Source: Symbiodinium sp. CCMP2592 (taxonomy: Eukaryota; Sar; Dinophyceae; Suessiales; Symbiodiniaceae). Taken from it: a stretch of DNA of 64,000 nucleotides. Under the pieces are notes generated by a model. That model saw only the letters and a list, made by a program, of their open reading frames with translations. It had not been told where the DNA came from and searched no databases. The stretch is from the NCBI GenBank assembly GCA_905221615.1, contig CAJNDT010000968.1, forward strand, positions 62,001 through 126,000, in the 5' to 3' direction. Positions 3,300-49,284 of this stretch are shown here, in pieces (within the stretch, counting starts at the first letter, position 1; each line of letters starts with the position of its first letter). Both the position numbers and the translations under genes were made by a program.

Positions 3300-3450
3300 T
3301 GTAGTTTTGCATCGCAGCTTGCGTAGGAGTTTGTATGGTCGTGTACAGTCATCATGTTGTGTACTATATACCGCTGACTATTGTGCCCAAGCCCTCTGAG
3401 TAAAAGAGTCTTAGCTCGCTCATGGCTTAACGGTTTTGGTGTATTCTATA
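3300..3450 (+). repeat. 5' LTR
   Basis: Identical to 16514-16664. It begins TGTAGTTTTGCATCGCAGC and ends TGGTGTATTCTATA. A TATA-like word (ACTATATACC) at about 3363-3372 could place the transcription start. At 151 bp it is short even for copia elements. Confidence 0.92.
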
Positions 3451-3462
3451 GGTTATCAGCCG
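3451..3462 (+). promoter_or_regulatory. Candidate primer-binding site
   Basis: The sequence directly after the LTR, GGTTATCAGCCG, resembles TGGTATCAGAGC, the site complementary to the 3' end of initiator tRNA-Met used by many copia elements, with one inserted T and a diverged end. Position is right; the tRNA match is imperfect. Confidence 0.4.
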
Positions 3463-3515
3463 TATTCGCTGACTTTGTCTCCGTGGTATTCTTACACTGG
3501 TATTCGCATTGGTAC

Positions 3516-6500
3516 ATGAGCACTTCGCCCTCTCTGCTCACTACTGAGAAGGGAGAAACAACCGAAGTATCATCGGACGAGATGGACGACGAAACAAGAG
3601 ATCGACTGCTTGATGAACAACTTATAGCAGCTGGCGCGGGCCCTACGGCACCGAGCTCAGGATCCCAAGCACTCGATAGGATCTTCGGTCCAGTGGGTCC
3701 TACCCTATCTCCATTTGTCTCAAATCCAACGGTCGACATCTCAAACGTACAGTATACCTTGTACAATGTTGTGAACCAGGGTGAAACAGCTGAACAACAA
3801 AGAATGGCAATAGAGCGAACGGAGGCAGATGCTGAAAGAAGACACGCAAGCATTCTGAACCAACAATCGCATGATAATCTTGTGAGAATGGCTGGCATGG
3901 CTGAACAGGCCGAGCGCCTTCATGAGGTGAAGATGGCAGAATGCGAAGCACAGTTTGCGGAATTTGAGTTCAACGCATCCCAAAGGGAAAAGTTTTTGTT
4001 GAACGAAGTTGCAACATGCAGAAATGAAATGAACATTCTGGAATCAATTTTCCAACAACGACATCAGTCGGAAATCGCTAAGCTCAGAACTACTCTGATT
4101 GCTGAGAGCGAACGCAACAAAGCACAACATCTTGATTTTCTTGGAATGCGATTCAAACAAGTTCTTGAAGAAACCGAAGCGAGTATGGAACGACGTTTCA
4201 TTACTGAAATCGCTGAAATGAGTGCGCAAAACGACAGACTGCAGGATGAACTGGCTGCCGCAGAACGAGCCCTAAGAATGGAAGCCAATGCGGACGAAGC
4301 GGGCAAACAATATGCCACGCCGAAGCCAGGACCTAATCCTGCTGTCCCGTTCTCAAATCCATTTGAGATTCCCGAGAATATGAAGGACATCTTCGGAAGA
4401 ACGCCGCAAGCTCAGGAACCTCCGCAAGGAACTTCTGTACCACCTGGGTTTGAGAACAGAGAGCCACAAAAGGAAAAGTCTCCTAAAGCTGCCCAAGCGG
4501 GTAAGCCGGCGACTGTTGATCCAGAAGGGGTTCCAACTGTTGATTTCGGAGCTGAGGCATTGATTAGGGCAGCTCGCTTGCTTACCCCTAAGACCGAAGA
4601 TGAAGAGGGCAAACCAAAGGTGAAAGAAGCCGAAAGTATCAAGCTTCCCGATTACCCTAATCCAGAGACCTACCGATCATGGCGGATCTCGGTCCGCGAG
4701 ATTGTGCGGGCTGCGAGCGATCGCCCGGATGAGGCATTTCGCTGGGTGCAGGAAGTATATGATAAAGAGGCTACCCTCAAGTCCTTACACGACACTGGGA
4801 AATTCTTAACATTGGACACGAAGTTGTTGGCTGCACTTACCAGAGTCGCTAGAGGAGAGATTTCAAGGCAAGTTCTAAACTTCAAAGAAACAGAGGCCAC
4901 AGGAGGACGTGCCGTCAGGGGAAGACAAGTGTTGTGGATGTTTCATCAACACTTTAAGACTAATGAAGAAGTCGGAAGCCTCTATAGCGTAGAAGACCTT
5001 CTAAAAGTGAAGTTGGTTGGGGACGATTTGGCTACCTTCCTTTACAACTTCGAGTCGGTGATTGCTGGAATGAGTCATGTTCCGGATGAAGTTACCTTGA
5101 GGGACATTTTGCTGAGGGAAATTCGGAAATCCCACCACATCAAGTACGATCTTCAGTTGTACGACAGGGCAAAGGAAGGAAACCCCATACACACGTATGA
5201 ATTCCTTGTCAATGCCATTAGGGAGCATCTGACTAGAGAGCGTATGCGTAAGAATCGTGACCGCATCGCTAAGTCGCATGGCGATAGATACGGAGCCCCA
5301 GCGTACGGATCTGAACGTCGCCCCTCTTCACGAGGAGGCCGTGGAAGAAGCATGTCCCGAAGTAGCTCAAAATCCAGAACAAGCAGCAAAGGATCGAGCC
5401 AACGAACACCGCCTAGATCTCAGAGTCCCAAAACGCAACAGGTTTGTTACGACTTCCAGAAAGGAAAATGCACAAGAGGCGACAAGTGTAAGTTTCTCCA
5501 CAAACCAAAGTCAAGATCCCCAAGTCCTCATCGAACGCCTCAGAAGAAGATCAACGCGATTTGCACCTTTTGGAAGAAAGGCAAGTGCAACAAAGGCAAA
5601 GACTGTAGGTTCCTGCATCAAGATAAGCCCAATCCAACTGACGCCGCTCCTACCGAGCAGGCCGCCCCTGCGAAGAACGATGAAAAGCCTAGGAGCCCGA
5701 CCCCGGATCCTAAAGCAAAGAAGGAAAAGAAACAAAGGGGCAGGTCCAAGAGCAAGGAAAAGTCTGGCGGACGCACGGCAGCTTGTTGCATTTCGTATGC
5801 GCTGGCAGCTGTGCCCAATGGGCAAGGCGTTAAGGGTGATGCTCCAGGAACGTTCAAGAAATTAAGGTTCAAGGAGAAGCCAAGCATTCGGGAGATTCCA
5901 TTGGATGGTAAGGGTAAGAAGCATAGGACCAAACCGCGAACTTTCGAAGTTTGTTACTTGGATGCTGAAAGCTGCCCAAAGCCTCCAGTTCAGGACCTAA
6001 GCACGGCCATAAGAACAGCGAACGAGCTTGCCAGGATCATGTCCTGTATGCTCAATGGGATTGAAAGCCACTGTGAGTACGAGTGCACAGATGACTGCGA
6101 AGAGGGTGAGATCCCAGTTGCAGTGTTGAAGTGCGAGCTGTGTTCTAGCGTGGAAAGAACAGCATGCTCTAGCTTTAATGCGGGATTAGAATTCCTCGCC
6201 GATACTGGCAGTGAAGAAGATCTGATCAGTAGGCACGATCACTCTATCTACTACCCAGAAGCTCCCATCGAAAACGCTAGTAGGCCGGTCAACCTGATTA
6301 CAGCTAATGGTCCAGTTCAGGGAATCAAGTCAACCAACATCCCGATGCCTGAACTGAAGCAAAACATTGAGTGCTATCTACTGGAAAGCACGCCACCGGT
6401 TTGTTCTGTTGGGAGAAGATGCATGGACGATGGATATGATTTCCATTGGCCTGCGGGCAAGGTTCCATACTTTATAGCTCCCGATGGTAAAGTCATCAAG

Positions 6501-6668
6501 TGTAAGATGAAGGGTAGAGTCCCAGTGATCTCAAATGATGACTCGGTAGCGAGCCCAGCAAGCGCTGATGATTCCCAGAAATCTGCTGGAACTCAGGTGT
6601 TTAACGCCGGTACAGTCAAGGTTGAACTGGCGGCACCTGCGGAGGACGAGTCTTCGGGTTTCCAGTAG
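3516..6668 (+). CDS. gag-pr: Gag-protease polyprotein (ORF1) with two CCCH zinc fingers
   Basis: The frame opens inside the LTR (3381), but the first ATG outside it is 3516 (MSTSPSLL), giving about 1050 aa. Residues about 90-260 are charged, heptad-rich and probably coiled coil. A structured capsid-like part covers about 370-590. A Ser/Arg-rich basic stretch (about 595-640) precedes two zinc fingers at residues 644 and 683, each C-x7-C-x5-C-x3-H. This is the CCCH type and not the usual retroviral CCHC knuckle. The retropepsin motif FLADTGSEEDLIS has its catalytic Asp near residue 896. ORF1 therefore carries Gag plus protease, and the rest of pol lies in the -1 frame. The ORF ends TTC CAG TAG. 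It contains two dispersed hairpins (5320-5341 and 5643-5664) on either side of the zinc-finger block. Role: particle formation, RNA binding and polyprotein cleavage. Confidence 0.88.
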   Translation: MSTSPSLLTTEKGETTEVSSDEMDDETRDRLLDEQLIAAGAGPTAPSSGSQALDRIFGPVGPTLSPFVSNPTVDISNVQYTLYNVVNQGETAEQQRMAIERTEADAERRHASILNQQSHDNLVRMAGMAEQAERLHEVKMAECEAQFAEFEFNASQREKFLLNEVATCRNEMNILESIFQQRHQSEIAKLRTTLIAESERNKAQHLDFLGMRFKQVLEETEASMERRFITEIAEMSAQNDRLQDELAAAERALRMEANADEAGKQYATPKPGPNPAVPFSNPFEIPENMKDIFGRTPQAQEPPQGTSVPPGFENREPQKEKSPKAAQAGKPATVDPEGVPTVDFGAEALIRAARLLTPKTEDEEGKPKVKEAESIKLPDYPNPETYRSWRISVREIVRAASDRPDEAFRWVQEVYDKEATLKSLHDTGKFLTLDTKLLAALTRVARGEISRQVLNFKETEATGGRAVRGRQVLWMFHQHFKTNEEVGSLYSVEDLLKVKLVGDDLATFLYNFESVIAGMSHVPDEVTLRDILLREIRKSHHIKYDLQLYDRAKEGNPIHTYEFLVNAIREHLTRERMRKNRDRIAKSHGDRYGAPAYGSERRPSSRGGRGRSMSRSSSKSRTSSKGSSQRTPPRSQSPKTQQVCYDFQKGKCTRGDKCKFLHKPKSRSPSPHRTPQKKINAICTFWKKGKCNKGKDCRFLHQDKPNPTDAAPTEQAAPAKNDEKPRSPTPDPKAKKEKKQRGRSKSKEKSGGRTAACCISYALAAVPNGQGVKGDAPGTFKKLRFKEKPSIREIPLDGKGKKHRTKPRTFEVCYLDAESCPKPPVQDLSTAIRTANELARIMSCMLNGIESHCEYECTDDCEEGEIPVAVLKCELCSSVERTACSSFNAGLEFLADTGSEEDLISRHDHSIYYPEAPIENASRPVNLITANGPVQGIKSTNIPMPELKQNIECYLLESTPPVCSVGRRCMDDGYDFHWPAGKVPYFIAPDGKVIKCKMKGRVPVISNDDSVASPASADDSQKSAGTQVFNAGTVKVELAAPAEDESSGFQ

Positions 6669-6692
6669 AAAGCCGTCCGAGAGGACCGGCCG
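6656..6692 (+). promoter_or_regulatory. Predicted -1 ribosomal frameshift signal (slippery site plus hairpin)
   Basis: GGGTTTC at 6656-6662 fits X XXY YYZ exactly in the gag frame (G GGT TTC), two codons before the TAG at 6666. Slipping back one base enters the pol frame, which is open from 6626. Nine bases later, 6672-6692 can form a hairpin: stem GCCG-TCC pairing GGA-C-GGC, with one bulged C and a GAGA loop. The hairpin is one member of the family found 19 times in this element. Confidence 0.72.
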
Positions 6693-9600
6693 GGGATGAA
6701 AGAGTCGTCCACAGCGACTCCGAGATAGAAGAAGCAATCAATGCTGCACCGCCAATTGCAATCAAGCCTAAAGATTTAGCCAAGCCAGGTTGGATCACTA
6801 GCAGTGAAATTGCCGCATCAAAGATCATTATTGGTCATCGGCCAAAGGCTCTGCGAGTACCTGCACCTCGTCATCCAAGGTTCGTGCTAAGGACCACTTG
6901 GATCTACAAGGACTCTGCTTGGAGCAAGATTGAGGATTCTGTTGACATCAGAAGTCTAAGGGTTAAAAATCAAAAGATTGATGGATCGCCAATTCTGTCG
7001 ATTACTGCTTTCAAAAGACCCGAGGACGACCCCTTAATCGAGCCCGATAGTGACAAGGAAGAAGATGAGGGAAAGGAAATCTCGCAAGAAGCCCGGCTTC
7101 GCGCCGAGGCCGAAAGCATCCATCATCAATTCTGCCATCGTCCTAAGAACCCATTCTGCAAAGTGTGCCAAAAGGCGAAGATGCTATCTCCCCAAGCTCG
7201 AAGAAAGGGGGGGTCTTCGACCATACACAGTGAAAAGTATGGGGATCATGTTACCATTGATCATCTCGTGACAAGAGATCTGAGGGACTTTGGATTTCAG
7301 GATGAGAGGGTGGCGCTTGTTATCAAAGATGTGTTTTCGCAATTTAGGTATGTGTATCCTAGCGCAACAAAATCAACGGAACAAGTGCATGAGGACCTTC
7401 TGCACTTTTTCGGTACGCAAGACGAAGTTGGGGTTATTTACTCTGACAACGCGCCGGAGTTGGGAGCAGCTGTGAAGGAACTCCGATGTAGGCACAACAC
7501 CTCTAGAGAGTACGTGGATGAAACTAAGGCCGTCATCGAACGGGAAATCCGCACCGTACTAGAGGGTACGCGCTCGAACTTGGAGCAAGCCGGTCTTCCA
7601 GAACGGTTTTGGCCTTTAGCAGCTCAGCACCACTCCATTGCGCTCAATCTCACAAAACGAGTGGATACTGGTGAAATCCCATGGGAGGCACGCTTTGGGG
7701 AATCCTTTGCGGGATTGATTGTTCCTTTCGGAGCTAAGGTCTTGTATTGGCATAACCCTAAACAGAATGTTCCGGAGACTTCCAAGTTTTCGTCAACTGG
7801 GGTTGAAGGGATCTTCCTGGGATACCATATCCAACCAGGGTTTGTTTGGAAGAAGGAGTATTTGATTGCACCCGTGAAAGACGCACAGTTTGCCATTGAG
7901 GACGGAAACCTCAAGGTCATCAGGGCTAAGCGCGTTGAGTTGATTGAGGGGAGTTTTGAGTTCCCACTTCAATCGGGAAGGATCAAGGATCGCGAGGCAC
8001 ACGAGGTTCCACTGTTGGATGATCAGAACATTCATGCTTCAGATGAAGAAAAGGAACGGGGACTTCGTGAGGCAGGCGAACTCCTTGATGAAATCGGCTT
8101 ATCCGAACCCGAACCCGATGACGATCAAAGCCCACCGAAAGGTGAGGCCGCGCCTAGGCCCAGTGAGCCATCGTCTAGTTCCAAAGGTGATCTGTTTGAT
8201 CCCACGAAATATCCTGATGGTAGACCGGTTCCTGCTGGTTACAATTGGGATGGGGTTAGACTTGTGAGGAACAAGAAAGGCTCCAAAAGACCTCCTGATG
8301 TCCCGTCCGAATTCTGGCACATGTATTCCGCACAACAACGAAAAGAGGAAATCGAACGATGGGAGAAGAAGGTTGCGCGGGAGGAAGCTAGGTTAAAAGA
8401 AGAACGAGAGAAAGAAGCTCCCGCTATGCCTGTTCTCCTTGGACATCGAGAACCTCATCGACCGAGGACGCCTGAGGATGGGAAGAGGTTGCACGGTTTA
8501 TTTCTGGATAAGCTAGAGGAAACTTGCGAGGATCTTTTCGCTGTGGTTGCCAAGCTTATCAATCAGAATGATGTTGCCAGAAACCCTGAGGCTCAGGCTG
8601 CTATGGACAAAGAATGGAAGAAACTTCTTGATAAAGGGTGTTGGCTTGAGAAACAGGTTCGTGAGTACGACGACGTCTTGTCTGAAACCAAGGCAAAAGG
8701 CGAAAAGGCTCACTTCGGGAACGTGTTCGAGATTTGCAGCCTTAAGGGTTCCGAGTTGCAGGATGGCAACCCGCTTAAGTACTACAAGGGACGTTCTGTG
8801 TTCCAGGGGAACCAGGTTCGAGATGAAAATGCGGATCACGCGATCTTCGCCGAACTGGGTTCTAGCCCTGCAAGTATGGAAGCGGGTAAAATCATCGATG
8901 TGTTCGGAAGCCAACCAGGCTATGCAAAACAGCAAGCTGATGCTCGACAAGCGTATACTCAAGCTTTGTTCAAAGGGATTGCGACTTGGGTTCGACTTCC
9001 CAAGAATCGTCGACCGCCCGAGTGGCGCAACTTTCGCGACCCAGTTTGTCCTCTCAGACTCGCTTTGTATGGACATCCTGACAGCGGCGGCATCTGGGAA
9101 CGACACTGCACTGCTCAGTTGAAGAGCATAGGGTGGATCCCGGTTCTTCCAGATATATGGCAAAGTATCTTTTACCATCCGGAATTAGATCTCCTCCTCG
9201 TCGTCTACGTCGACGATTTCAAAATGGCAGGACCAAAGGACAATCTTGCTAAGGGATGGGAGGGGATTGGGAAGGTTTTGGATATGGATCCTTCGGAACC
9301 ATTTGGGAGATACTTTGGTTGCAATCATCGAGAGCAGAACGGTGTTATGCTTGACCGTAGCGCACATCCTTTTGCCTATGTCTTCGACAAGAAAATTGCA
9401 GCACCAGCAGCCGGAGGAAACTCCAGGCCGAGTAGAACAGAAGATTATTGGGAGGTTGATCCGGATGCTGCGCTTGCAATCAGACATCACAGGTACCCCA
9501 GAAAGCGTTTGTACGTACCAAGTGAAGACGACATGAGACAGTTTCCCACTCTGGGAACTGAACGCATAACAGAGTTTGAGAATGGAGATCAGATACAGGA

Positions 9601-12600
9601 TGATTCCAATCAGGGGGGCCCTGCTAGGCGAAACGAGTGGTGGACGGGCAAAACAATCTTCTCTATCATGCCAACGACGGCAGACGACTTTAAGCTCGCT
9701 GCTGCCGCCCGAAAGGGCAGGCCGATGAGAAGCAAATCAGACGCTAAGCGCGAAGCTAAGCAGTCTAGATTTAAGAGCACTGATACGATCATCAAGGAAC
9801 CCGTCCCCGCTATGACTAAGCCTGTCAACGTTGTGACGTATGACATGAAGGACTTCCTGGTCTCCTGTGTCGACAAGTACTGTGAATTAGCTAAAGTTTC
9901 ACGTGATTCCCTGAAGTTTGCAGCTACGCCGTTTCATGAGAACAGAGTAGCCAAACCTGCGGAAGGCAACGAACCCCAGGGGAGGTTGCAACCGATTGCC
10001 AGTCGGGTCCTCATGAAGGTATTGTTTGCAGCAAGGATGGCAAGGTGGGACTTACTTCGGTGTACCCAGTCGCTCGCTTCCAGGGTCACGAAGTGGTCAA
10101 GAGACTGCGATGTCGGTTTACATCGGCTGATCTGCTACATCAATTCGAGCTTGGACATCACGATGCAGGGTTTTATTGGCGATAAGATTTCGGACTGTAA
10201 GTTGTGGCTCTTCTGTGACGCTGATTGGGCAGGAGAATTTGATTCCAAATCCACATCAGGATGCGCACTGTTCTTGGTTGGGCCCAACACTTACTACCCG
10301 TTGAACGCTTTTTCAAAGAAACAAACCAGCATCACGACGTCTAGCACCGAAAGTGAAGTGGTTTCAGCGAATCACGGCATCAGAGCACAAGGCCTGCCTA
10401 GCTTAAGCTTGTGGTGTTACCTTTGGGGAGAGGTTACTGCTAATGCAGCCGGTCGAAAGACCAGGCCGCCGGCGGAATCACCTAAAGTCACGGAAACAAT
10501 CGTTGCAAGGATTGACCCGGAGCTTGATGCAATCAGGTATGGTGAACTCAGTCATGAAGGACGCTCTGTTGCGGATATAAATGGCTTGGATGTTCATCTT
10601 TCTGAAAAGTTTCAGGTTCAGTTCTTAGAAGATAACCAAGCTACAATCACCATCATTGCGAAAGGTGACAGTGAAAAGCTTCGTCATACCGATAGAACGC
10701 AACGACTTTCGTTTGCATGGATGAAGCAACAGTTCGAAAAGGGCCATTTCAACATGATCAATGTTGATACCAAAGAGCAGGTCGCAGACATCTTCACAAA
10801 ACCGTTTGCTGAACGTGGTAAGTGGGAACACGCGCTTAGGCTCATCAATCATGTACCTGATGCGCAGAATGCGAAGCCGGCTGAAAAGCCAGGCCGCTCT
10901 CCTACACCACACGAGGTTCAAGGCAAACGTGCTAAAGCAGCTGCTGCAATTCAGGAGGTTGAGATGGTTGCTTCAGAACTTTCCCGCCTGAAGGAGTACG
11001 GCTGTGATGCTTTGGAAAGGTTGTGTGAAGAGATTGCATCAAATCATACAGCTAGGAAATCCAAGCGACCTCGCATTGCATCAAAGAAACAAGGCTATTA
11101 TCAAGTGTACGGAACTTGGACACACGGTGGAATGCAAGGTGTTACCAGAAGCACTACTAGGTATCCCGCAGTTGCCAGGTACTTGAATGAGTTCGTGAAA
11201 GCTCATTCTCCCGACTCAGGTTTCACATGGACCTCAGTGGTGATTAGCAAGGACAACATGGCAAAAGTTCATGCTGATTCCCATAACTTAAAGGGTTCTA
11301 AGAACCTGATGGTTAGCTTTGGTGACCACAAAGGAGGTGGATTGTGGGTTGAAGATCAGACTGTTTCGGATACTAAGGCGCAGTTCCAGAAAGACGCTCA
11401 AGGACGTTTCATCAAAGGGGATGTGCATGACACCCATAGCAAACCCTTTGTCTTTGACCCAGCCAAGAAACACTGCGTGTTGCCTTATACCGGAAAACGT
11501 TTTTCTATCACCGCTTATACCTCTCGTGGTTTTCCCAAGCTTTCCACAACTGATCTTGAAACCCTCAACAAACACGGCTTTAGGCTCGGGTCTGCGGCGG
11601 CCGCTCCTGCAGACGCCCGGCTCGCGCCGAGGCCGATGGACTTTTGCAGGGTTTTGCTTGACTTTGGGAACGCTAGTGAAACCACCTTGTCAGGAAATGA
11701 TTCCTGTCGTGTTATCCCTGTCCCGAACAACCTTGAAACTATGAATCCGAAAGCTATGTCAAAAATCGCTAACAATCTTCGTGCCCTCTGCGACGAGGGG
11801 GGAAGCACTAAACCGATTCTCTACTTTGCATCGCTGCCGGACCACGAATGGAACAAATGTCTGAAATCGTTAATGTCGTTATGCCGATTAACCAAACGTC
11901 TTAGGCCCCACCTGCTGTTGGAAGCTTCAGCTAACAACGAGATGTGGTGTATGCCTGCTGTTGTGAAGTTGGCACACGATTTCGGTCTTGAGAAACACAA
12001 GAGCGGGTCGCTGATCTTTGCATCGTCTTTTCGATTGAAGCGGCTGCTGCTCGAAGCTACCCAGGACTGTGGACGACTAAGGACATCGAAAACCAAGGTT
12101 TCGGCATTGCATGCTGATTGGCAAGTGCATACCACTAAGGATAATGATGGACCTAAGGTACATGAAGGACTGGCATGCGCAGCTTTGTCATCGCTTTACT
12201 GTACAACTAAAGCCCAGCTAACGCTGAGGCCGGGTCCTAGTCCCGTGGTAGCAGCTGAGAGTAGAAGAGCGATGGCGACCTACGAAGAGCAGTTGGCCGA
12301 GTTTTGGGGCCGCCAGCTCTGGGCGGCCGTCATCAGTCACGAGTCGATAGGCTTCCAAGAGTCGATTGACGAAGGAGAGTTGCGAGCACTTTTTCAGTAC
12401 ATGCCGGTGCAAGTGGCTGCTCACAACTGCTTTGAAACGGATCGATATCCAGGGCTCAACCGAGTGGCAGCACTGACGCAGTCTGGCATGTCGCAGCCAA
12501 AGCCCGATGAAAATCGAGGCCGAAAGCGGGTGCTCATCCTCCTCTCCGACTCTACGACTGTTATCGTCGCTGGCAAGAGAACGAGGACAGACCTTTCCTC

Positions 12601-13369
12601 GGATTTGAAGGCAGCGAGCTCGGGGGTCTATCTGCAATACAGGGAGATAATTTACGAACCCCTGTGGGGCAAAACATTGTCCGAACTTCGGGAGAGGGCT
12701 CAGATCCTCTGTGACCAGACGGCTCTGCGCTACTCTGGCGACCCAGAGTTGCTGGTGGACGTGCAGATTGTCTGGATGGCGAATGAGATCGTCGGCAGAT
12801 ACGGGATATTTTGCAGCCCCGGCGTCCCGACGTGGTGGGACCATCAATCGCCCATAGAAGCCCGCGGAGATTGGCAAAAGATCTGTCGGAGAGTTTGCCA
12901 AAACCTTGAAGCGCTTGCAGACCTGCAGCGCCGTTCTCCATATGTGGGGTCCATTGTGATCTGCACAGGAATTCGCAGCTTCGTCTACGGGTTGCCAAAG
13001 CAGTTTGATGAATGCATTGCGCGATTCAAGGACGAAGCGGTCCGTAGAGGACTCGCCGCCTGTGACATCCACCCCTTCCTTGGAGATTTGGCGCTCTACA
13101 ACGACAACGTCCACTTCCGCGAAGACTCCGAGTCTCGCCGTCGCATGGTTTCCGGGCTGGCGCATATCATGCAAATTCAGATTGCTGAGAGGTATGCTGC
13201 CAGGGCCATCGCCAAGATGGGAGAGGATGCCTTCAAGTCGCTGCTCGCTGAGAATTATTTTGATTCTCGAGGACGCTACGCCATTGATAATCAGGTGTTA
13301 CAGATTACTCTGGCGAAGATGTCTAGGAGCAAACAAGTGAAGGCGGAGCCAACGGAGGAGGATCCGTGA
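6662..13369 (+). CDS. pol: Pol polyprotein: integrase, reverse transcriptase, RNase H, 2OG oxygenase-like and SGNH-like domains
   Basis: Residues are counted from the GTG at 6884. No good ATG exists, so expression by -1 frameshift from gag is preferred. Zinc-binding HH-CC region at about 75-100. Integrase core Asp126 (TIDHL), Asp188 (SDNAPEL) and Glu219. RT contains DARQAYTQALFKG and the catalytic YVDD at 775-778. RNase H has Asp1112 (FCDADWAGE), Glu1156 (TESE), Asp1250 (EDNQATI) and the copia signature ADIFTKPF near 1301. Beyond it, where copia proteins normally end, are about 850 more residues. One domain near 1400-1555 has His1463-x-Asp1465, GGGLWVED, His1530 and Arg1539, as in 2-oxoglutarate/Fe(II) oxygenases. 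One near 1880-2100 has LLSDST, WMANEI and DNVHF, as in SGNH hydrolases. The ORF ends at a TGA, after which the frame stays open. Catalytic copia residues are all present. Confidence 0.9.
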   Translation, partial: PVESRPRGPAGDERVVHSDSEIEEAINAAPPIAIKPKDLAKPGWITSSEIAASKIIIGHRPKALRVPAPRHPRFVLRTTWIYKDSAWSKIEDSVDIRSLRVKNQKIDGSPILSITAFKRPEDDPLIEPDSDKEEDEGKEISQEARLRAEAESIHHQFCHRPKNPFCKVCQKAKMLSPQARRKGGSSTIHSEKYGDHVTIDHLVTRDLRDFGFQDERVALVIKDVFSQFRYVYPSATKSTEQVHEDLLHFFGTQDEVGVIYSDNAPELGAAVKELRCRHNTSREYVDETKAVIEREIRTVLEGTRSNLEQAGLPERFWPLAAQHHSIALNLTKRVDTGEIPWEARFGESFAGLIVPFGAKVLYWHNPKQNVPETSKFSSTGVEGIFLGYHIQPGFVWKKEYLIAPVKDAQFAIEDGNLKVIRAKRVELIEGSFEFPLQSGRIKDREAHEVPLLDDQNIHASDEEKERGLREAGELLDEIGLSEPEPDDDQSPPKGEAAPRPSEPSSSSKGDLFDPTKYPDGRPVPAGYNWDGVRLVRNKKGSKRPPDVPSEFWHMYSAQQRKEEIERWEKKVAREEARLKEEREKEAPAMPVLLGHREPHRPRTPEDGKRLHGLFLDKLEETCEDLFAVVAKLINQNDVARNPEAQAAMDKEWKKLLDKGCWLEKQVREYDDVLSETKAKGEKAHFGNVFEICSLKGSELQDGNPLKYYKGRSVFQGNQVRDENADHAIFAELGSSPASMEAGKIIDVFGSQPGYAKQQADARQAYTQALFKGIATWVRLPKNRRPPEWRNFRDPVCPLRLALYGHPDSGGIWERHCTAQLKSIGWIPVLPDIWQSIFYHPELDLLLVVYVDDFKMAGPKDNLAKGWEGIGKVLDMDPSEPFGRYFGCNHREQNGVMLDRSAHPFAYVFDKKIAAPAAGGNSRPSRTEDYWEVDPDAALAIRHHRYPRKRLYVPSEDDMRQFPTLGTERITEFENGDQIQDDSNQGGPARRNEWWTGKTIFSIMPTTADDFKLAAAARKGRPMRSKSDAKREAKQSRFKSTDTIIKEPVPAMTKPVNVVTYDMKDFLVSCVDKYCELAKVSRDSLKFAATPFHENRVAKPAEGNEPQGRLQPIASRVLMKVLFAARMARWDLLRCTQSLASRVTKWSRDCDVGLHRLICYINSSLDITMQGFIGDKISDCKLWLFCDADWAGEFDSKSTSGCALFLVGPNTYYPLNAFSKKQTSITTSSTESEVVSANHGIRAQGLPSLSLWCYLWGEVTANAAGRKTRPPAESPKVTETIVARIDPELDAIRYGELSHEGRSVADINGLDVHLSEKFQVQFLEDNQATITIIAKGDSEKLRHTDRTQRLSFAWMKQQFEKGHFNMINVDTKEQVADIFTKPFAERGKWEHALRLINHVPDAQNAKPAEKPGRSPTPHEVQGKRAKAAAAIQEVEMVASELSRLKEYGCDALERLCEEIASNHTARKSKRPRIASKKQGYYQVYGTWTHGGMQGVTRSTTRYPAVARYLNEFVKAHSPDSGFTWTSVVISKDNMAKVHADSHNLKGSKNLMVSFGDHKGGGLWVEDQTVSDTKAQFQKDAQGRFIKGDVHDTHSKPFVFDPAKKHCVLPYTGKRFSITAYTSRGFPKLSTTDLETLNKHGFRLGSAAAAPADARLAPRPMDFCRVLLDFGNASETTLSGNDSCRVIPVPNNLETMNPKAMSKIANNLRALCDEGGSTKPILYFASLPDHEWNKCLKSLMSLCRLTKRLRPHLLLEASANNEMWCMPAVVKLAHDFGLEKHKSGSLIFASSFRLKRLLLEATQDCGRLRTSKTKVSALHADWQVHTTKDNDGPKVHEGLACAALSSLYCTTKAQLTLRPGPSPVVAAESRRAMATYEEQLAEFWGRQLWAAVISHESIGFQESIDEGELRALFQYMPVQVAAHNCFETDRYPGLNRVAALTQSGMSQPKPDENRGRKRVLILLSDSTTVIVAGKRTRTDLSSDLKAASSGVYLQYREIIYEPLWGKTLSELRERAQILCDQTALRYSGDPELLVDVQIVWMANEIVGRYGIFCSPGVPTWWDHQSPIEARGDWQKICRRVCQNLEALADLQRRSPYVGSIVICTGIRSFVYGLPKQFDECIARFKDEAVRRGLAACDIHPFLGDLALYNDNVHFREDSESRRRMVSGLAHIMQIQIAERYAARAIAKMGEDAFKSLLAENYFDSRGRYAIDNQVLQITLAKMSRSKQVKAEPTEEDP
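11090..11560 (+). other. 2-oxoglutarate/Fe(II) dioxygenase-like domain inside Pol
   Basis: The order is KVHADSHN (HxD metal ligands at 11270-11278), FGDHKGGGLWVED (the small-Gly-Gly-Leu strand common in this fold), and KKHCVLPYTGKRFSI (distal His at 11471, 2OG-binding Arg at 11498). Spacing of about 67 residues from first to last His fits the double-stranded beta helix. TET/JBP-like or prolyl-hydroxylase-like substrates are both possible; substrate is unknown. Confidence 0.5.
12520..13170 (+). other. SGNH/GDSL hydrolase-like domain inside Pol
   Basis: RVLILLSDSTT (about 12526) resembles block I with the nucleophile Ser. IVWMANEIVG (about 12770) sits where block III (GxND) is expected. SIVICTGI (about 12952) is a central strand. 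LYNDNVHF (about 13096-13116) matches block V with Asp-x-x-His. Similar esterase domains are known in ORF1 of some LINEs (CR1/L2 group). No activity can be claimed. Confidence 0.45.
13367..13369 (+). other. In-frame UGA between Pol and ORF3
   Basis: TGA (context CCG TGA GAC) is the only stop between 6626 and 15200 in this frame. The 27 codons after it (13370-13450) are open and protein-like (YWEEKRDESH, then PAPEVPDFLKE) and run straight into the ORF3 ATG. It could be a recent nonsense mutation or a read-through or recoding site. Confidence 0.65.
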
Positions 13370-13450
13370 GACGATGCATACTGGGAGGAGAAGCGTGACG
13401 AAAGTCACGCCGAGCTGCCTGCGCCTGAGGTCCCCGACTTCCTCAAGGAG

Positions 13451-15202
13451 ATGAAGATTCAGAATGTCATCAGCGTCGCACCTGGTGTTTTCGCAACAGA
13501 AGAGGAGATCAATTCGCCGGAATGGAACAAAGCCCCACCTAAGGTGGAGGCCGTTACCCCGGCGAGTACTGCAGCTTCGTCTTCTGGCGATATTCGACCA
13601 ATGCCGATCGACGCATCCATTTATGGTGGAGGCATTCTGTCTGGCGACTCTGGCACCGAGCACGCTGCAAAAAGAGCTCGCCTCGCAAAGGCTGAGGCCG
13701 ACAAGCAGCGATTGACCAAGCTCGCAGTGCAGGGATCGCGCGGAATGAGGTTCATGAATGACACCTACGACTTCGCCGAGATGACTGGCATTACCCTGTA
13801 CGATTACTGGAATGAATGCCCCTCGCAAGAGGAGGCCGTCCAGTACATCGAAGTGTTCCAAAAGGACATGACTCCTGGCCTGCATTACCCCCAGTGTGAC
13901 CACAAGATGGTCACGTTTGTCACTGGGCTGATCAGGGGCAACTTCGAGAACAAGGGTAATCAATTTAAAATGCAGTCGTGGGACGGGCCGTGGGTCCTAG
14001 CCATGGAAGTGCTTGAGGTTGCCAACAGATGCAGACCTGGAAGCAACATTGGTTTAGGAATTCTCCTCGACATGATCGCCACCGACAACAAACAGCGCCT
14101 TATGTTTCGCGGACCAATGGACAGTGCTGCCGATGCAATTGGCCAACCGGCTTTTCCGGTCTACGTCGGTAGTACGCAGGGCCACTCCAGCAATCTGCAG
14201 CTCGACAATGCCTCTATTGCAAAGGCATATCTTACACTGCAGCGTTCTGAAGAGCTGGCTAACGCCGCCCGAGAGGGCAGGCCGTTGATCCCGATTGACA
14301 AGGCGCCGCCCAGACTCTATCATCGCACAACACATGATGCGGCGTATGCGATTCTGGAAGATCGTTTGTTGCCTGGTTTTGGAGGTTCTGAGAAGGCGCA
14401 TTGTTATTTTGCGCCGCTGCCGCTCGAAGAGCAAAAGGTACGTTCAGGACTTCGTGCAAACGCACCGATTGAGATCGTCTTTGACACCCGGGAGGTCCTC
14501 GAAGCTGGCTGCGACCTATTCCTTACGGAGTCTGATGGCATACTGTGCTCCGAGGCAGTCCCCGGCTCGACCATCTTGTTCATCAATGACACGCAACGCG
14601 ATGTCACACTTTGGTCCCGTGCGGGAGGCGCTGTCCCTCCTGATGAGGCGGAACAAGGTGAAAGCCCAGCTAACGCTGAGGCCGGCATCGATATCGTTCT
14701 TGATGAACCCGAGGCTGAGGAGACGACTCAGGACAATTTCGCACCGCCTATTGATGAAGAACATGGTACCCTTCCAGCTGAGGAAACATCCCTACCGCCC
14801 ATTCCAGATGTCGCTGATGTACTTGAGGGATCGTTGGCTATCACCGATGCCCCTGCAAAGGCTGACGACGATGAAGCTCCTGATGATGAGCAAATGCCCT
14901 CCGTAGAGGAGAGGCCGCTTGTTGAACCAGGCACCATCATTGCACAGCCGGGTCCTCCAATCAGGACTGTGTACATTGGTGACGGAATGGCGACAACGGT
15001 GACGCTGGATGCTGAGGGTACACCAGTTGAAGCAATCCAGGAGCCGGTGGGAAGACCAGAACCAGTACTTTATGCTGGTAGTGAGACCAAGCCATCCGCC
15101 CGTTTTTGGAGAAAATCAAATGCTACCACTGCAAAGCTGAGTGTCTTCAAGGCCAAAGGATTTGCTCTCAATGCGGAGGGCCAGTTCGACCAGGTCAATT
15201 GA
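13451..15202 (+). CDS. ORF3: protein with KptA/Tpt1-like RNA 2'-phosphotransferase (ART-fold) domain
   Basis: 583 aa from the ATG at 13451; the same frame is open back to the TGA of pol, so it may be the C-terminus of one polyprotein. Residues 1-100 are a low-complexity, basic/acidic linker. Residues 100-270 form a globular part I do not recognise. Residues about 288-388 read LYHRTTHDAAYAIL, then HCYFAPLPLEEQKV, then EIVFDTREVLEAGCDLF, SDGILCSEAVPGSTILFI. This matches the C-terminal catalytic half of KptA/Tpt1 enzymes (LYHGT, H-x-S, D-x-G-x-x-F, NGV-L-x-x-x-VP), which remove a 2'-phosphate from RNA through ADP-ribosylation. The usual N-terminal winged helix is not evident. Residues 390-583 are acidic and disordered. 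Four dispersed hairpins fall in or beside linkers. Confidence 0.75.
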   Translation: MKIQNVISVAPGVFATEEEINSPEWNKAPPKVEAVTPASTAASSSGDIRPMPIDASIYGGGILSGDSGTEHAAKRARLAKAEADKQRLTKLAVQGSRGMRFMNDTYDFAEMTGITLYDYWNECPSQEEAVQYIEVFQKDMTPGLHYPQCDHKMVTFVTGLIRGNFENKGNQFKMQSWDGPWVLAMEVLEVANRCRPGSNIGLGILLDMIATDNKQRLMFRGPMDSAADAIGQPAFPVYVGSTQGHSSNLQLDNASIAKAYLTLQRSEELANAAREGRPLIPIDKAPPRLYHRTTHDAAYAILEDRLLPGFGGSEKAHCYFAPLPLEEQKVRSGLRANAPIEIVFDTREVLEAGCDLFLTESDGILCSEAVPGSTILFINDTQRDVTLWSRAGGAVPPDEAEQGESPANAEAGIDIVLDEPEAEETTQDNFAPPIDEEHGTLPAEETSLPPIPDVADVLEGSLAITDAPAKADDDEAPDDEQMPSVEERPLVEPGTIIAQPGPPIRTVYIGDGMATTVTLDAEGTPVEAIQEPVGRPEPVLYAGSETKPSARFWRKSNATTAKLSVFKAKGFALNAEGQFDQVN

Positions 15203-16191
15203 AGGCACAGGGCAGACGGACGCTGTTGGCACGTGGGCGTGAAGCTCTGCTTCAGGAGATGGGTGATGCCGCTGAACGAGTGGGAGTGAGGCCAAGCCTT
15301 CAAAGCGCATCGAAAGATGTCGCCGGCCGTGGCATGAACTCCTTAGAAGGCGAGGTTATTCGGAAAGCCAAAGTGGCAAAGCAGAGAGCCGTGAAAAAGG
15401 GCTACACTGATTGCGTAGCGAGGTTCAATCATGACAATGAATACGCAATTTCAATGGCCAAAGAGGGATACACACGCAGAACGATCCGTGCCCTCGACTG
15501 CCTCTGCTTCGCCTACCTTCCGAACCCTGGCCGCACTCGATCGCAACGCATGCTGGCTATTGGATCCTCCAGAGCGGCGAGTTCCACGCACCAGACCCGC
15601 ACGGACGAGGTTCCAGAGTGTCGTATCGTTTTCTTTACCGGAGACGATGGCATTGGCGGTAAGTTGTGCGCAGCGGGACTAACGTCCACGCCGGAGGATA
15701 CGCCAGTAGCATTTACATGGTACGGAGCCATCCTTTCGTTCCAAGATTTCGCTCACAACATCGCCAAGCAAAAGGGGGGCATCCGTCTACAGACTTTTGG
15801 CCACAGCAAGGTGGATTTCCTCAACTACGATCCCGCTGCAGTGGGTACGGACCTACAGACCGTTTTGGCAAAGGACCTACCCTTCATGGTGGAGACGGTT
15901 GAGGAAACCATCAAGAAGGCCAATCAAAGTCGTGCTGCCCAGCCGAAGTATGCCCAGCAGCATCCGCCAGGTGGTGGCAAGGGCTCTACATATGCCCGAG
16001 CAGCAGAGAAGGGAAAAGGCAAAAGCCCGGCTAACGCCGAGGCCGCCGATCGCACCAACCGCGACTGGGACTGGGATAATCAATCCTGGTGGCAGAACTG
16101 GTCTTCGTCATCCTGGGGAACATGGAGCGGCCAGAACTGGGACAACCAGGACTGGCGTGAGTGGCGCAATCGCGGATGGCGTTGGAACTAA
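15106..16191 (+). CDS. ORF4: zinc-ribbon protein with Trp-rich tail
   Basis: The frame is open from 15085 and lies -1 relative to ORF3, overlapping it by about 100 bp. There is no ATG at the start (TTG at 15106; the next ATG is far inside), which suggests a frameshift fusion or an indel. The N-terminus CYHCKAECLQGQRICSQCGG is a clear C-x2-C...C-x2-C zinc ribbon. The middle (residues about 60-270) is unrecognised, with IVFFTGDDGIGG and VAFTWYGAILSFQDF. The last 45 residues contain 12 Trp among Asn, Asp, Gln and Arg (WDWDNQSWWQNW onward). A dispersed hairpin lies at 16025-16045 just before the tail. Function unknown; nucleic-acid binding is a guess from zinc ribbon plus aromatic tail. Confidence 0.7.
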   Translation: MEKIKCYHCKAECLQGQRICSQCGGPVRPGQLKAQGRRTLLARGREALLQEMGDAAERVGVRPSLQSASKDVAGRGMNSLEGEVIRKAKVAKQRAVKKGYTDCVARFNHDNEYAISMAKEGYTRRTIRALDCLCFAYLPNPGRTRSQRMLAIGSSRAASSTHQTRTDEVPECRIVFFTGDDGIGGKLCAAGLTSTPEDTPVAFTWYGAILSFQDFAHNIAKQKGGIRLQTFGHSKVDFLNYDPAAVGTDLQTVLAKDLPFMVETVEETIKKANQSRAAQPKYAQQHPPGGGKGSTYARAAEKGKGKSPANAEAADRTNRDWDWDNQSWWQNWSSSSWGTWSGQNWDNQDWREWRNRGWRWN

Positions 16192-16505
16192 TAAGCCGAC
16201 CCAGTAGTCTGATTCTTTCGAGCAAGAGGGACGTTCACCCGGCCTGTGATATTTTTCAAGTGGCTGTGCGGCGAACTCCTATCATCCTTGCTCCACGCTG
16301 AAACCAGCGTCTTGCATTTGAAGAAAAGCTTGCATGCAGTTTTTCGCACCCTTCCTCGAGGCACACGATAGTCACATGTACTTTTGCTGAACTGATGACG
16401 CGGGAGGCAACTCCACGCCGATCGTCAAACTCCGAGCCGAAGCGCTCTTCCACCTGCAGGCGAAGGTATGCTGTGTTTTTGGATGCAGTGACCGTGCCTT
16501 TAGGT
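16192..16505 (+). other. 3' untranslated region of the retrotransposon
   Basis: Between the ORF4 stop and the purine tract. No motif or conserved ORF was seen. The short antisense ORF at 16256-16453 has no recognisable features. Confidence 0.6.
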
Positions 16506-16513
16506 GAGGGGGG
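16506..16513 (+). promoter_or_regulatory. Polypurine tract
   Basis: GAGGGGGG lies directly against the 3' LTR, the expected primer for plus-strand DNA synthesis. Confidence 0.75.
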
Positions 16514-16664
16514 TGTAGTTTTGCATCGCAGCTTGCGTAGGAGTTTGTATGGTCGTGTACAGTCATCATGTTGTGTACTATATACCGCTGACTATTGTGC
16601 CCAAGCCCTCTGAGTAAAAGAGTCTTAGCTCGCTCATGGCTTAACGGTTTTGGTGTATTCTATA
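16514..16664 (+). repeat. 3' LTR
   Basis: Identical copy of 3300-3450, followed by the TACAT target duplication at 16665-16669. Confidence 0.92.
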
Positions 16665-21955: not shown

Positions 21956-24900
21956 ATGGCTGCAGCATCTGCAGCAGAGGAGCCGAGCTACAACTTGTCG
22001 ACGCCCGAATCTTTACTCTGCTTCCTCGAAGATGCCGGCATCCGCCTGGTGCGCCTCGACTACCTGATCGAGCTCTCTGCATCCGGAAGGCCTTTGCCAC
22101 GCCGGCAAGAGGCGGAAATGGAGAAGACGAGCTCAGGGGCGCCGGCGCTCGTAGAGAGCAGCGAGCTCAAAGAAGTGAGGATTGACCCCAATACGGCCCA
22201 CATGTCTGTGATGCTCCGGCACCCAGTGCCCAGACGGGTCCAAGTCCACGTCGTCTCCATCAGCCACATGTGGGAGACCATGCAGCATCCGGATCCGTGG
22301 AGGTTCGCGCTTCGGGTGGGATAATTCTGGGACTGTGTTGTAGGGGGTAGATCTGCGCATCGCAGTGTGTTTTATGTCGCACCACCTTGTCTTGCTGCCC
22401 TTGCTGCGAGGTTCCAGCTGGATGCCATCGTGGAGGAGTTCCGTCCCCGACTCCTGGATTCAGTAGTTTGGATCTTCTACGACTTCGTTTCCTTGCACCA
22501 ATACACTAGAAACGAAGAACAAGAGATGCTTTTCCGACGGGCGCTCCGCGACATATTTGTCATGTACTCCCACGATGCCATGGAAGTCCATCGGATCGAG
22601 ATGCTGACTCCGGAGAACGTGCGACAAAGGTGTGTGGCAGCTCACGGACCCAAGATTTGCGTGTATTGGGAGGAGGAGCAGAAGATGACGGATGTGCTTA
22701 TCACTAAACTCAAGCGAAACGAGACGCCCTACGAGCACCGGGGCTGGTGCCGGTCCGAGAAGGAGTGGTCAGCCTTGCGGACATGGATGAAGGGCGAAAA
22801 TCCGGTGCCCCTTCCGCCAGACATGTTCCGGGCACGGATGCAGCAGATGAAGTTTACACACAGGGAGGACTCGGAGGAGGTTTTCATGCTCCAGGCGAAG
22901 GTCTTCGTCCAGAAGGCCACGTCCACCACCAAACTCCTCATCGAAAACCTGGATGAGGACAAGATCGCCGTTCTATCTGCAGCTCTGCCTTTCTACACCA
23001 AGCTCAAAGAGCTCGTGATCATGGGAAGCCCGGAGAATGCTTGGAAAGCGGTTTTGGGAGTGGTGGAATCCGGGGCCTGCAACGTCGAGATTGCGTGCGA
23101 GAATGTGCGGGACGAAGATGCGATACCTGTTGCGGCCGACTTGTCCAAGGAGAAGTGCAATCACTTGGAGCGGCTGCACCTCAAGTGTGAGACGATTGGT
23201 GAACTGGGTAGGCAAGCCCTGGAGCAGATGATGACGGGCCGCAGGGCCAGTCTGCTGATTAGCATTCCAGACCGCAGTCGGCACTGTGTCGGGCAGGGGA
23301 TGGAGCCAGCGGTAGCCTCGGAGACTTTCGTGACGCTGCACATCCTCATCTCCAAACGTAGACAACCCCCGAGGCCTGCAGAAGCCCCCGCGCAGGCTGG
23401 GGACAGCAGTGCGAGCGGTCCGTTGGAGCCGCATGCCTCCGGAGGCGCTGTGGAGCAGACCTTGAGCGTCCCGCAGCACGCAGAGGCAGGTCCGGACATG
23501 GCCAAGCAGATCGTGAGCGTCCATTGCCTGGCAGGGTCCAGCTTTGAGCTGGAGGTCAACTCTGCCCAAACGGGGTGGGATGTGGCGGTACACATCGCAA
23601 GCCGAAGTGGCCATACCGCAGAGACACTTGTGCTGACATCCGGTGGTTGTGTCATCGATCAGTGCGAGCCGCTGCTGCATCAAGTCCAGCTCGGAGAGAT
23701 CACGTACGTGGTGCAGAAGCTTGGCGCCGGTCGTGCTGCGAGGAGTTGGGCGAACCTTCTCGCGGAGAAGACTCTGTCTGACACAGATGTAGTTGCCCTG
23801 AACGAAACAGTGTCACTCACATGGAACGTCAACCAGAGCTTGGAGGGCATCCCACTACCCAGCCGCCTGCAGAGTTTAACGTTTGGCGACTGGTTCAACC
23901 AAAGCTTGGAGGGCATCCAGCTACCCAGCAGCCTGCAGAGTTTGACTTTTGGGTACCACTTCAGCCAGAGCTTGAAGGGCATCCAACTACCCAGCAGCCT
24001 GCAAAGTTTGACGCTTGGCGGAGAGTTCAACCAGAATTTGGATGGCATACACCTGCCCTGTATCCTGCAGAGTTTAACGTTTGGTAGTATGTTCAACCAG
24101 AGCGTCGAGGGCATCCAACTACCCAGCAGCCTGCAGAGTTTGGAGTTTGGCTACTACTTCAACCAAAGCTTGGAGGGCATCCAACTACCTAGCAACCTGC
24201 AGAGTTTGACGTTTGGCAGAAACTTCGACCAGAGCTTGGAGAGCATCCAACTACCCAGCAGCCTGCAAAGTTTGACGTTTGGTGCTATCTTCCACCAGAG
24301 CTTGGAGGGCATCCAACTACCCAGCAACCTGCAGAGTTTGACGTTTGGCAGAGACTTCAACCAAAGCTTGGAAGGCATCCAGCTACCCAGCAGCTTGCAG
24401 AGATTGACGTTTGGTGCTCTCTTTAACCAGAGCTTGGAGGGCATCCAGCTACCAGGCAGCCTGCAAAGTTTGACGTTTGGCAGAGACTTCAACCAGAGCT
24501 TGGAGGGCATCCAACTTCCCGGCAGCCTGCAGAGTTTGACGCTTGGCGGAGACTTCAACCAGAGCTTGGAGGGCTTGCAACTACCCAGCAGCCTGCAGAG
24601 TTTGACGTTTGGTACTACGTTCAACCAGAGCTTGGAGGGCATCCAACTACCCAGCAGCCTGCAGAGTTTGACGTTCGGCTACTACTTCAACCAAAGCTTG
24701 GAGGGCATTCAGCTACCCAGCAGCCTGCAAAGTTTGGCGTTTGGCAGAAACTTCGACCAGAGCTTGAAGAACATCCAACTACCCAGCAGCCTGCAAAGTT
24801 TGACGTTTGGTGCTATCTTTCACAAGAGCTTGGAGGGCATCCAACTACCCAGCAGCCTGCAGAGTCTGACGTTTGGCAGAGACTTCAACCAGAGCTTGGA

Positions 24901-25297
24901 GGGTATCCAACTACCCAGCAGCCTGCAGAGTTTGACGTTTGACGATAAGTTCGACCAGAGCTTGGATGGCATCCAGCTGCCTAGCAGGCTGCGGAGTTTG
25001 ACGTTTGGTACTATGTTCAACCAGAGCTTGGTGGGCATCCAGCTACCCTGCGCTCTGCAAAGTTTGACGTTTGGCAGAGACTTTAACCAGAGCTTGGTGG
25101 GCATCCAACTACCCAGCAGCCTCCAGAGTTTGACGTTTGGCAGAGACTTCAACCAGAGCTTGGAGAGCATTCAACTACCCAGCGGCCTGCAGAGTTTGAC
25201 GTTTGGTGCTATGTTTAACCAGAGCTTGGAGGGCATCCAACTACCCCGCAGTTTGAAGACTTTCACTTCATACTCGTTTTCCGTAGGCAGCTTGTGA
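21956..25297 (+). CDS. FNIP-repeat protein A with ubiquitin-like domain (two exons, apparently intact)
   Basis: Exon 21956-22315 (ATG, MAAASAAEEPSY), 96-bp intron 22316-22411, exon 22412-25297; about 1080 aa. The intron starts CGG|GTGGGATAATTC and ends GCGAG|G; the donor/acceptor register is ambiguous by one G. Residues about 130-260 hold a domain with WIFYDFVSLHQY and ETPYEHRGWCRSEKEW, a pattern seen in many algal proteins but of unknown function to me. Residues about 485-560 (SVHCLAGSSFELEV to EITYVVQKLG) look ubiquitin-like. Then come 22 copies of a 22-residue FNIP-type repeat (FNQSLEGIQLPSSLQSLTFG-xx) and a tail ending FSVGSL. FNIP repeats are LRR-like solenoids, abundant in Dictyostelium and some protists. 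Likely a scaffold or recognition protein; substrate unknown. Confidence 0.85.
23823..25260 (+). repeat. 66-bp tandem repeat array of gene A (22 units)
   Basis: Each unit encodes 22 residues. Variable pairs after TFG show a higher-order repeat: units 5-8 (YY, RN, AI, RD) recur as units 13-16 in the same order, indicating a block duplication of about 528 bp period. Confidence 0.9.
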
Positions 25298-48700: not shown

Positions 48701-49284
48701 TACCCAGCAGCCTGCAGAGCTTGACGTTTGGCTTCATGTTCAACCACAGCTTGGAGGGCATCCAACTACCCAGCAGCCTGCAGAGTTTGAGGTTTGGCTA
48801 CAGCTTCAACCGGAGCCTGGAGGGCATCCAACTTCCCAGCAGCCTGCAGAGTTTGACGTTTGGCAGCGAGTTCAACCAGAGCCCTGAGGGCATCCAACTT
48901 CCCAGCAGCCTGCAGAGTTTGACGTTTGGCAAGGAGTTCAACCAGAGCCTTGAGGGCATCCAACTACCCAGCAGCCTACAGAGTTTGACGTTTGGTGAAT
49001 GGTTTAACCAGAGCCTGGAGGGCATCCAACTACCCAGCAGCCTGCAGAGTTTGACGTTTGGCGACAGGTTCAACCAGAGCTTGGCGGGTATTCAGCTACC
49101 CGGCAGCCTTCAGAGTGTAACGTTTGGTGGCCAGTTCAACCAGAGCCTGGAGGGCATCCAACTTTCCAGCAGCCTGCAGAGTTTGACGTTCGGCAAGGAG
49201 TTCAACCAGAGTTTGGAGGGCATCCAACTTCCCTACAATTTGAAGAGTTTCACTTCACATGAGTTGTGCGTAGGCAGCTGGTGA
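45713..49284 (+). pseudogene. FNIP-repeat gene C, frameshifted in the repeat array
   Basis: Exon 45713-46072, 96-bp intron 46073-46168, exon from 46169. The WIFYDFVSLHQY/PYEERGWC domain and ubiquitin-like domain are intact. A perfect 23-bp tandem duplication (48619-48641 and 48642-48664) shifts the frame, so the ORF stops at 48658 after about 16 repeats. The remaining nine repeats continue in another frame to 49284 and keep the conserved tail. It may still give a shortened protein. Higher-order repeats are clear: the unit order FM, YS, SE, KE, EW, DR, GQ reuses units from the first half. Confidence 0.8.
47586..49245 (+). repeat. 66-bp FNIP array of gene C (about 25 units)
   Basis: Contains copied multi-unit blocks (e.g. 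LN followed by QK, occurring twice) and the 23-bp slip duplication. Confidence 0.88.

Follow-up and report, generated by a model that had tools for sequence, protein, structure and literature searches.

Why does the coding sequence of a retrotransposon carry, again and again, a small hairpin whose letters differ from site to site while its pairing is kept? The question is raised by a 64-kb stretch of DNA from the dinoflagellate Symbiodinium sp. CCMP2592 (contig CAJNDT010000968.1, positions 62,001 to 126,000; the whole stretch is referred to as the window), in which a complete copia-type long terminal repeat (LTR) element occupies positions 3300-16664, with a TACAT target duplication directly outside both LTRs. 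A preliminary description had listed 19 such sites in this element and proposed either a hairpin that multiplies inside it or a multi-copy binding site. We find the array to be an RNA element in many copies, conserved at largely shared sites in related elements with some turnover, and not mainly a jumping hairpin. This pattern suggests that the element may recognise its own RNA through a landing site repeated along the molecule.

Results

A single hairpin architecture in 23 copies

All 19 sites fitting the preliminary description were present on the sense strand, and their distribution over the codon phases was 9, 7 and 3, as stated. A bulged A was likewise confirmed in 17 of the 19 (6672 has C, and 13680 lacks a perfect 4-bp inner stem). 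The inner stem, said to be always complementary, is so at 18 of the 19 sites and imperfect at 13680; nine of the 18 have GNRA loops, in agreement with the reported 'about half', and three more have UAAC. The inner stem had been given as 3 bp, and is really 4 bp once the variable S pair is counted. Similarly, the GCC...GGC frame was too narrow: the 19 sites exist, but the outer stem varies, which adds 13037, 15305, 15673, 16400 and, with a G-U pair, 4488.

With 13680 set apart as doubtful, 23 hairpins on the sense strand of the element share one architecture; the first, at 4488, is in gag and the last, at 16400, in the 3' untranslated end. They follow the pattern RAA-GCS-NNNN-loop-N'N'N'N'-(bulge, mostly A)-S'GC-CG: the outer stem has 3 bp (GCS:S'GC), the inner stem has 4 bp and is free in sequence, a single nucleotide bulges out on the 3' side, and the loop is of GNRA type. 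The bulged base is A in 20, U in two and C in one; the loop is GNRA in 11, UAAC in four (together 15/23) and of other kinds in eight. The outer stem occurs as GCC:GGC, GCG:CGC or GCT:AGC, with pairing kept. Position -3 is a purine in 23/23 hairpins (P about 1e-6 compared with the other GC[CGT] of the element), 18 have A at -2 and 15 have A at -1; positions -3 to -1 had played no part in hairpin selection. In a 161-nt context, the inner stem was predicted to form with a probability above 0.8 in 19/23 hairpins. The hairpins and two possible further members are as follows.

4488..4508, + strand: hairpin, outer stem GCT:AGC, loop AAGC, one G-U pair; covariance model E 1.4 only
5320..5341, + strand: hairpin, loop TTCAC
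5643..5664, + strand: hairpin, loop CTACC
6672..6692, + strand: hairpin, loop GAGA, bulge C
7091..7112, + strand: hairpin, loop TTCGC; disfavoured in 161-nt context
8130..8150, + strand: hairpin, loop GAAA
9410..9430, + strand: hairpin, loop GAAA; disfavoured in 161-nt context
9704..9724, + strand: hairpin, loop GAAA; outer stem disfavoured in context
10448..10468, + strand: hairpin, loop GAAA; clearest covariation among relatives
10876..10896, + strand: hairpin, loop GAAA
11615..11635, + strand: hairpin, loop TCGC; disfavoured in 161-nt context
12212..12232, + strand: hairpin, loop TAAC
12502..12522, + strand: hairpin, loop GAAA
13037..13058, + strand: hairpin, outer stem GCG:CGC, loop GTAGA, bulge T
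13393..13412, + strand: possible bulge-less member, GCG TGAC GAAA GTCA CGC CG
13532..13553, + strand: hairpin, loop CTAAG (or 5-bp stem with loop TAA)
13680..13700, + strand: doubtful member; flanks fit, inner stem imperfect
13818..13838, + strand: hairpin, loop GCAA
14264..14284, + strand: hairpin, loop GAGA; disfavoured in 161-nt context
14664..14684, + strand: hairpin, loop TAAC
14896..14917, + strand: hairpin, loop GTAGA
15305..15325, + strand: hairpin, outer stem GCG:CGC, loop GAAA, bulge T
15673..15693, + strand: hairpin, outer stem GCG:CGC, loop TAAC
16025..16045, + strand: hairpin, loop TAAC
16400..16420, + strand: hairpin in the 3' untranslated end, outer stem GCG:CGC, loop GCAA

The hairpin at 16400 lies 3' of the last stop codon, outside the coding sequence. 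Arms recur between sites, e.g. CGGC at 7091, 11615 and 16025, GCCC at 9704 and 14264, and CCTC at 5320 and 13818. The copies at 12212 and 14664 are identical, as had been noted (over 25 nt), and are read as AQLTLRP and SPANAEA respectively; this identity is weak evidence of copying, because the repertoire of stems is small and GC-rich and arms are also common to other sites.

The array exceeds chance, keeps to the sense strand and ignores reading phase

The array is far beyond chance, strand-specific and independent of reading phase. When synonymous codons were shuffled 400 times with the protein held fixed, the four frames contained a mean of 0.055 strict hairpins and at most two, compared with the 18 observed; no strict hairpin was found antisense in the element or elsewhere in the window. 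The flank pattern GCCN12AGGCCG occurs 13 times (0.76 expected), and although it leaves the stem free, a perfect 4-bp inner stem is present at every match but 13680 (12 of the 13). The covariation score of these 13 flank-selected sites (12 distinct) was 0.671, compared with 0.154 for shuffled and ≤ 0.115 for slid partners. Conservation of a peptide as the cause of the motif is rejected in view of its three coding phases.

Scanning the window for GCC-arm-loop-arm-GGC yielded 24 plus-strand and seven minus-strand sites; all those with an inner arm of at least 4 followed by AGGCCG are on the plus strand and inside the element. We also scanned for geometry with no demand on sequence: 3 bp plus 4 bp, a loop of 4-5 and, on the 3' side, a single base left unpaired. 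The sense strand of the element gave 25 matches, compared with one to five for five other bulge geometries, while in the rest of the window every bulge geometry gave 66-80 matches with no preference. Adding GC...GCCG ends left 22 Watson-Crick sites in the element sense strand, or 23 with one G-U pair; none was antisense in the element, and elsewhere in the window there were no Watson-Crick sites and one with G-U, on the minus strand. Other bulge geometries with these ends numbered 0-2 per strand and region.

In a search of the window with a covariance model built from the 13 flank-selected sites, 21 plus-strand element sites ranked first, 13 of them being the training set itself; 15305 and 4488 scored under an outside site and 13037 was not listed. 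The 12 matches of at least 27 bits all came from the training set. Motif scans of viral contigs returned 112 and 25 stretches. On 100 viral-contig loci, all preselected for flanks, the model gave four matches of at least 27 bits in 0.89 Mb, and 1.23 Mb of such loci held three full hairpins, two of them at preselected places, which is about chance level. Rfam gave no match at gathering score in the 64 kb.

Related proteins could encode the same hairpin

Searches for related DNA loci found none in viral contigs (queried with the pol frame or a 22-row alignment) and none in genome contigs (queried with P0001), and the relatives were analysed as proteins. In phase 0, the motif is read as A-c2-c3-c4-c5-(R/K/E)-P, where c2 and c5 are reverse complements. 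In P0001-P0044, 47 of 73 unique phase-0 peptides allow reverse-complement codons, compared with 23.3 when c5 is permuted (P 0.0002); in P0001-P0120, 54 of 101 were compatible, compared with 27.7. Four control patterns were flat in both sets. Counted strictly, the motif was found 32 times in the 120 proteins, compared with 2-6 in shuffled and none in reversed proteins. Among 18 long relatives, which were hand-chosen and in part closely related, the counts by phase were 42, 14 and 7 for the sense form (3.0, 0 and 1.0 in shuffles) and 2, 1 and 2 for the antisense form (1.3, 0 and 1.7 in shuffles). In the set of proteins covering reverse transcriptase (RT) and RNase H, phases 1 and 2, with 2 and 10 occurrences, stayed at the level of the shuffles.

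GNRA-capable loops were found in 32 of 99 stem-compatible and in two of 109 incompatible peptides (Fisher P 5e-10; 218 peptides in all, with ten that fit neither class excluded). The R/K/E codon beside the bulge agreed within element lineages (0.749 versus 0.417, P 0.0005, 83 peptides, the lineages not all being independent); similarity at codon 2 was 0.273 within lineages versus 0.137.

Sites are largely shared, arms change and there is some turnover

Comparison of the 19 sites with 13 relatives showed 71 of 143 covered cells to be hairpin-compatible, compared with 105 of 3276 elsewhere; this test takes in a few residues around each site, and a few matches (ARSKTEA near 9704, for example) are probably incidental. 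P0127 was compatible at 18/18 covered sites. Its stem-coding residues are changed at nine of these (11615, 12212, 12502, 13037, 13532, 13818, 14264, 14664 and 16025); at the other nine they are as in the window, which is uninformative on compensation. Three sites illustrate the variety of compatible peptides. At 10448, relatives have AGRKTRP, ADHKVRP, ASYQARP, ANHKVRP, AGRKAEP and ASRKARP (not flagged compatible: P0139, P0141, P0142, P0145, P0146 and P0154). At 11615, where the window has ARLAPRP, they have ARQASRP, ARESSRP, AREYSRP, ARSLSRP, APLTRRP, ARLGTRP, ARDLSRP and ARPTPRP (not flagged: P0139), and at 14264 (AAREGRP in the window) ALREERP, ATFAGRP, AAFAGRP and ATWEGRP (not flagged: P0137, P0141, P0146 and P0159). 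Without conditioning on the motif, 55 of 93 sequences were compatible, compared with 38.1 expected; the excess was clearest at 10448 (21/31 versus 11.6, P 0.0005) and was also seen at 9410 (14/28 versus 9.3, P 0.007), while 14264 had too few sequences for this analysis.

Turnover was evident as well. Protein-level gaps of 5-8 residues lie opposite the hairpin peptides at 9410 and 9704; P0142 has no hairpin at 10448, whereas P0146 and P0154 have another near 10876. The peptide AALAGRP occurs three times in P0142 and in P0145.

Collectively, conservation of the hairpin structure in relatives is well supported. The proposal that the unit is kept as RNA and not as peptide fits the three coding phases, the excess over synonymous shuffles, the restriction to the sense strand, the bulge and loop constraints and the compensating changes at shared sites, and a putative multi-copy binding site is compatible with the same evidence. 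Multiplication inside the element is not the principal explanation, since many sites are common to diverged relatives, though gains and losses occur. The preliminary description had held that fixed sites with ordinary codon-level conservation would speak against it; the sites are indeed largely shared, but complementarity rather than the peptide is conserved.

The element and its candidate readers

The element is organised as follows.

3300..3450, + strand: 5' LTR, 151 bp, TACAT just before
3378..6668, + strand: gag open frame with two CCCH fingers
6626..13369, + strand: open frame with integrase, RT and RNase H region and two domains without known family (Pfam RVT_2 below cut-off only)
13370..15202, + strand: open frame with Tpt1/KptA domain PF01885
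15085..16191, + strand: open frame with Cys-rich start and Trp-rich end
16514..16664, + strand: 3' LTR, identical to the 5' LTR, TACAT just after

The RT and RNase H region is akin to copia-type proteins, and we call the element copia-type on the basis of relatives that carry PF07727. Those relatives that bear a species name are all Symbiodinium (natans, pilosum, microadriaticum and sp. KB8). In the window copy the frames within 6626-16191 are separate: a TGA stands at 13367-13369, and the reading frame changes near 15085-15202; P0127 is a single frame of 3155 aa over the same domains. Split frames alongside identical LTRs could reflect recent decay or recoding.

The two long domains after RNase H (X and Y, 10868-13366) matched no Pfam family above cut-off and had no credible match by sequence among solved structures. 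Domain X (10868-12208) was present in all long relatives with at least seven compatible segments. It was also present in P0134, P0136, P0139, P0141, P0146 and P0170, which have 0-4 compatible segments, and P0161 has six compatible segments without X, detection of X by BLAST declining with distance. Domain X is only a lead as the hairpin reader.

The frame 13370-15202 encodes a Tpt1/KptA RNA 2'-phosphotransferase domain (PF01885, E 1.6e-9) inside the retrotransposon, and many long relatives have PF01885 too. The Cys-rich start of 15085-16191 resembles a zinc ribbon (Pfam DZR below cut-off only). Further precomputed domains, PF00145, PF00692 and PF00658, occur in the relatives P0169, P0078 and P0164 and point to gene capture by such elements. 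The other long frames in the window are FNIP-repeat proteins. Three long genes of this kind (22325-25297, 38721-41350 and 46082-49284) have near-identical starts, and in the latter two a second open frame also runs across the repeats.

Discussion

How might such an array work? The sense RNA of the element, mRNA and genome at once, carries at least 23 hairpin copies and would present them to a reader, plausibly an RNA-binding protein encoded by the element itself, either the CCCH Gag or an extra C-terminal domain. Such a reader would recognise the bulge, the loop shape and the flanks rather than the letters of the stem, and many moderate sites along the RNA would allow such a protein to pick out its own full-length RNA for packaging, coating and condensing it. 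That the hairpins are dispersed recognition sites of this kind, resembling packaging signals, seems to us a little short of an even call. In LTR elements, signals for packaging are usually looked for close to the 5' end. Packaging by Gag would be the simplest job for the array, and it would resemble dispersed packaging signals. The agreement of the R/K/E codon by the bulge within lineages suits a reader co-evolving with the element. Tentatively, and with rather more doubt than belief, we extend this to a dinoflagellate copia clade that marks its own RNA with > 20 phase-independent, bulged GNRA-type hairpins in coding sequence. An element protein that co-evolves with them would read these as a dispersed, well-defined code for packaging or self-recognition, and compensatory changes at the shared sites would have preserved that code across deep divergence.

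Several observations weigh against this interpretation. Since the relatives are known as proteins, their pairing codons are possible rather than observed. Four of the 23 inner stems (7091, 9410, 11615 and 14264) are disfavoured in their 161-nt context, and unconditioned covariation was not significant at 9704 (11/21 versus 10.0), 11615 (8/8 versus 6.2) and 12212 (1/5 versus 1.0). In the 18 long relatives, a scrambled-tail form of the motif occurred 13, 0 and 0 times (against 2.3, 0.3 and 0.7); part of the phase-0 signal may therefore be linker composition. Finally, the CCCH-bearing relatives P0149, P0151 and P0153 are without strict hairpins, which leaves room for a reader other than Gag.

A conserved cis-signal could instead be read by a host protein, for export, stability, localisation or escape from silencing, and would yield the same RNA-level conservation. 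The window, admittedly a small sample, has no strict hairpin outside the element and so gives no sign of host-gene use, and a bulge-side codon that changes by lineage at several sites sits more naturally with an element protein that co-evolves; we consider a host reader unlikely. That the hairpin is a tiny mobile or copied unit multiplying within the element, like bacterial mobile palindromes, with the shared sites as old insertions, is improbable: the gaps opposite 9410 and 9704, the repeated AALAGRP and the within-lineage similarity of codon 2 are what it would predict, but there are no antisense copies in the element, P0127 retains compatibility at every covered site, and arms differ while pairing is kept.

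A role in translation, in which hairpins slow ribosomes between polyprotein domains so that each can fold, would account for the location of most of the 23 in coding sequence and, by eye, of many in variable linkers. Pausing needs no conserved bulge, loop class or flanks, however, and 16400 sits past the last stop codon, which makes this role decidedly improbable. It is very improbable that the hairpins are substrates of the element's own Tpt1/KptA-type RNA-repair domain, for although the element encodes PF01885, a Tpt1 region is also present in P0147, P0148, P0152, P0160, P0167 and P0168, which have few (1-4) compatible segments. Template-switch repair of imperfect palindromes, a process that keeps palindromes perfect, could hold the arms complementary without selection; it leaves the strand bias, bulge, loop class, constant ends and purine at -3 unexplained, and we give it hardly any credence.

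With clearly defined covarying hairpins along most of a coding region, dispersed self-recognition would become open to direct tests, and the consensus is precise enough for mutation, binding and chemical-probing work. The array would also be an RNA code overlaid on that for the protein, in each of the three phases, and its compensating changes alter the protein.

Comparison with known systems

Rickettsia palindromic elements are hairpin-forming units within coding genes, found in several phases, and are longer mobile units. The hairpins described here likewise lie in coding genes and in several phases, but are 19-20 nt, in one orientation and at shared sites. Mobile palindromic elements are expected in either orientation, unlike this array, which has no antisense member in the element. 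Nematomorpha mitochondria have perfect inverted repeats of up to 284 bp inside translated genes (PMC6649704, in part). The likeness is that of inverted repeats in translated genes; unlike here, no shared short motif is described in the abstract (PMC6649704).

The boxB RNAs of lambdoid phages have a GNRA-like fold with GNRA and UMAC loop versions, UMAC being GNRA-like (PMC12550061, in part). They resemble our hairpins as small stems with a GNRA-like or UMAC loop, the class to which the GNRA and UAAC loops of 15/23 hairpins correspond. boxB is present in few copies, acts in anti-termination and is bound by the phage N peptide; it is not known to have a bulge architecture like that of this array.

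Among the open-access papers listed by literature searches we recognised no description of such hairpins, so that absence from print is not established; 'hairpin' and 'stem-loop' have no occurrences in PMC11453091 and PMC5890265, on dinoflagellate genomes and retrotransposons. A close parallel is with MS2 and other single-stranded RNA viruses, in which many genome-wide hairpins share a recognition pattern and not a sequence, and where the MS2 operator has a bulged A on the 5' side and a (x)xYA loop (PMC6281560, in part). Like such dispersed packaging signals, the 23 hairpins share a pattern that is kept while stem sequence varies, lie on the genomic sense strand only and, as in MS2, include a bulged A in the recognition pattern. 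Unlike MS2, the bulge here is on the 3' side, the loops are GNRA or UAAC, the consensus is much tighter, and the array, known from sequence, belongs to a retrotransposon. With its function deduced rather than observed, the array would appear to belong with dispersed cis-acting RNA hairpins.

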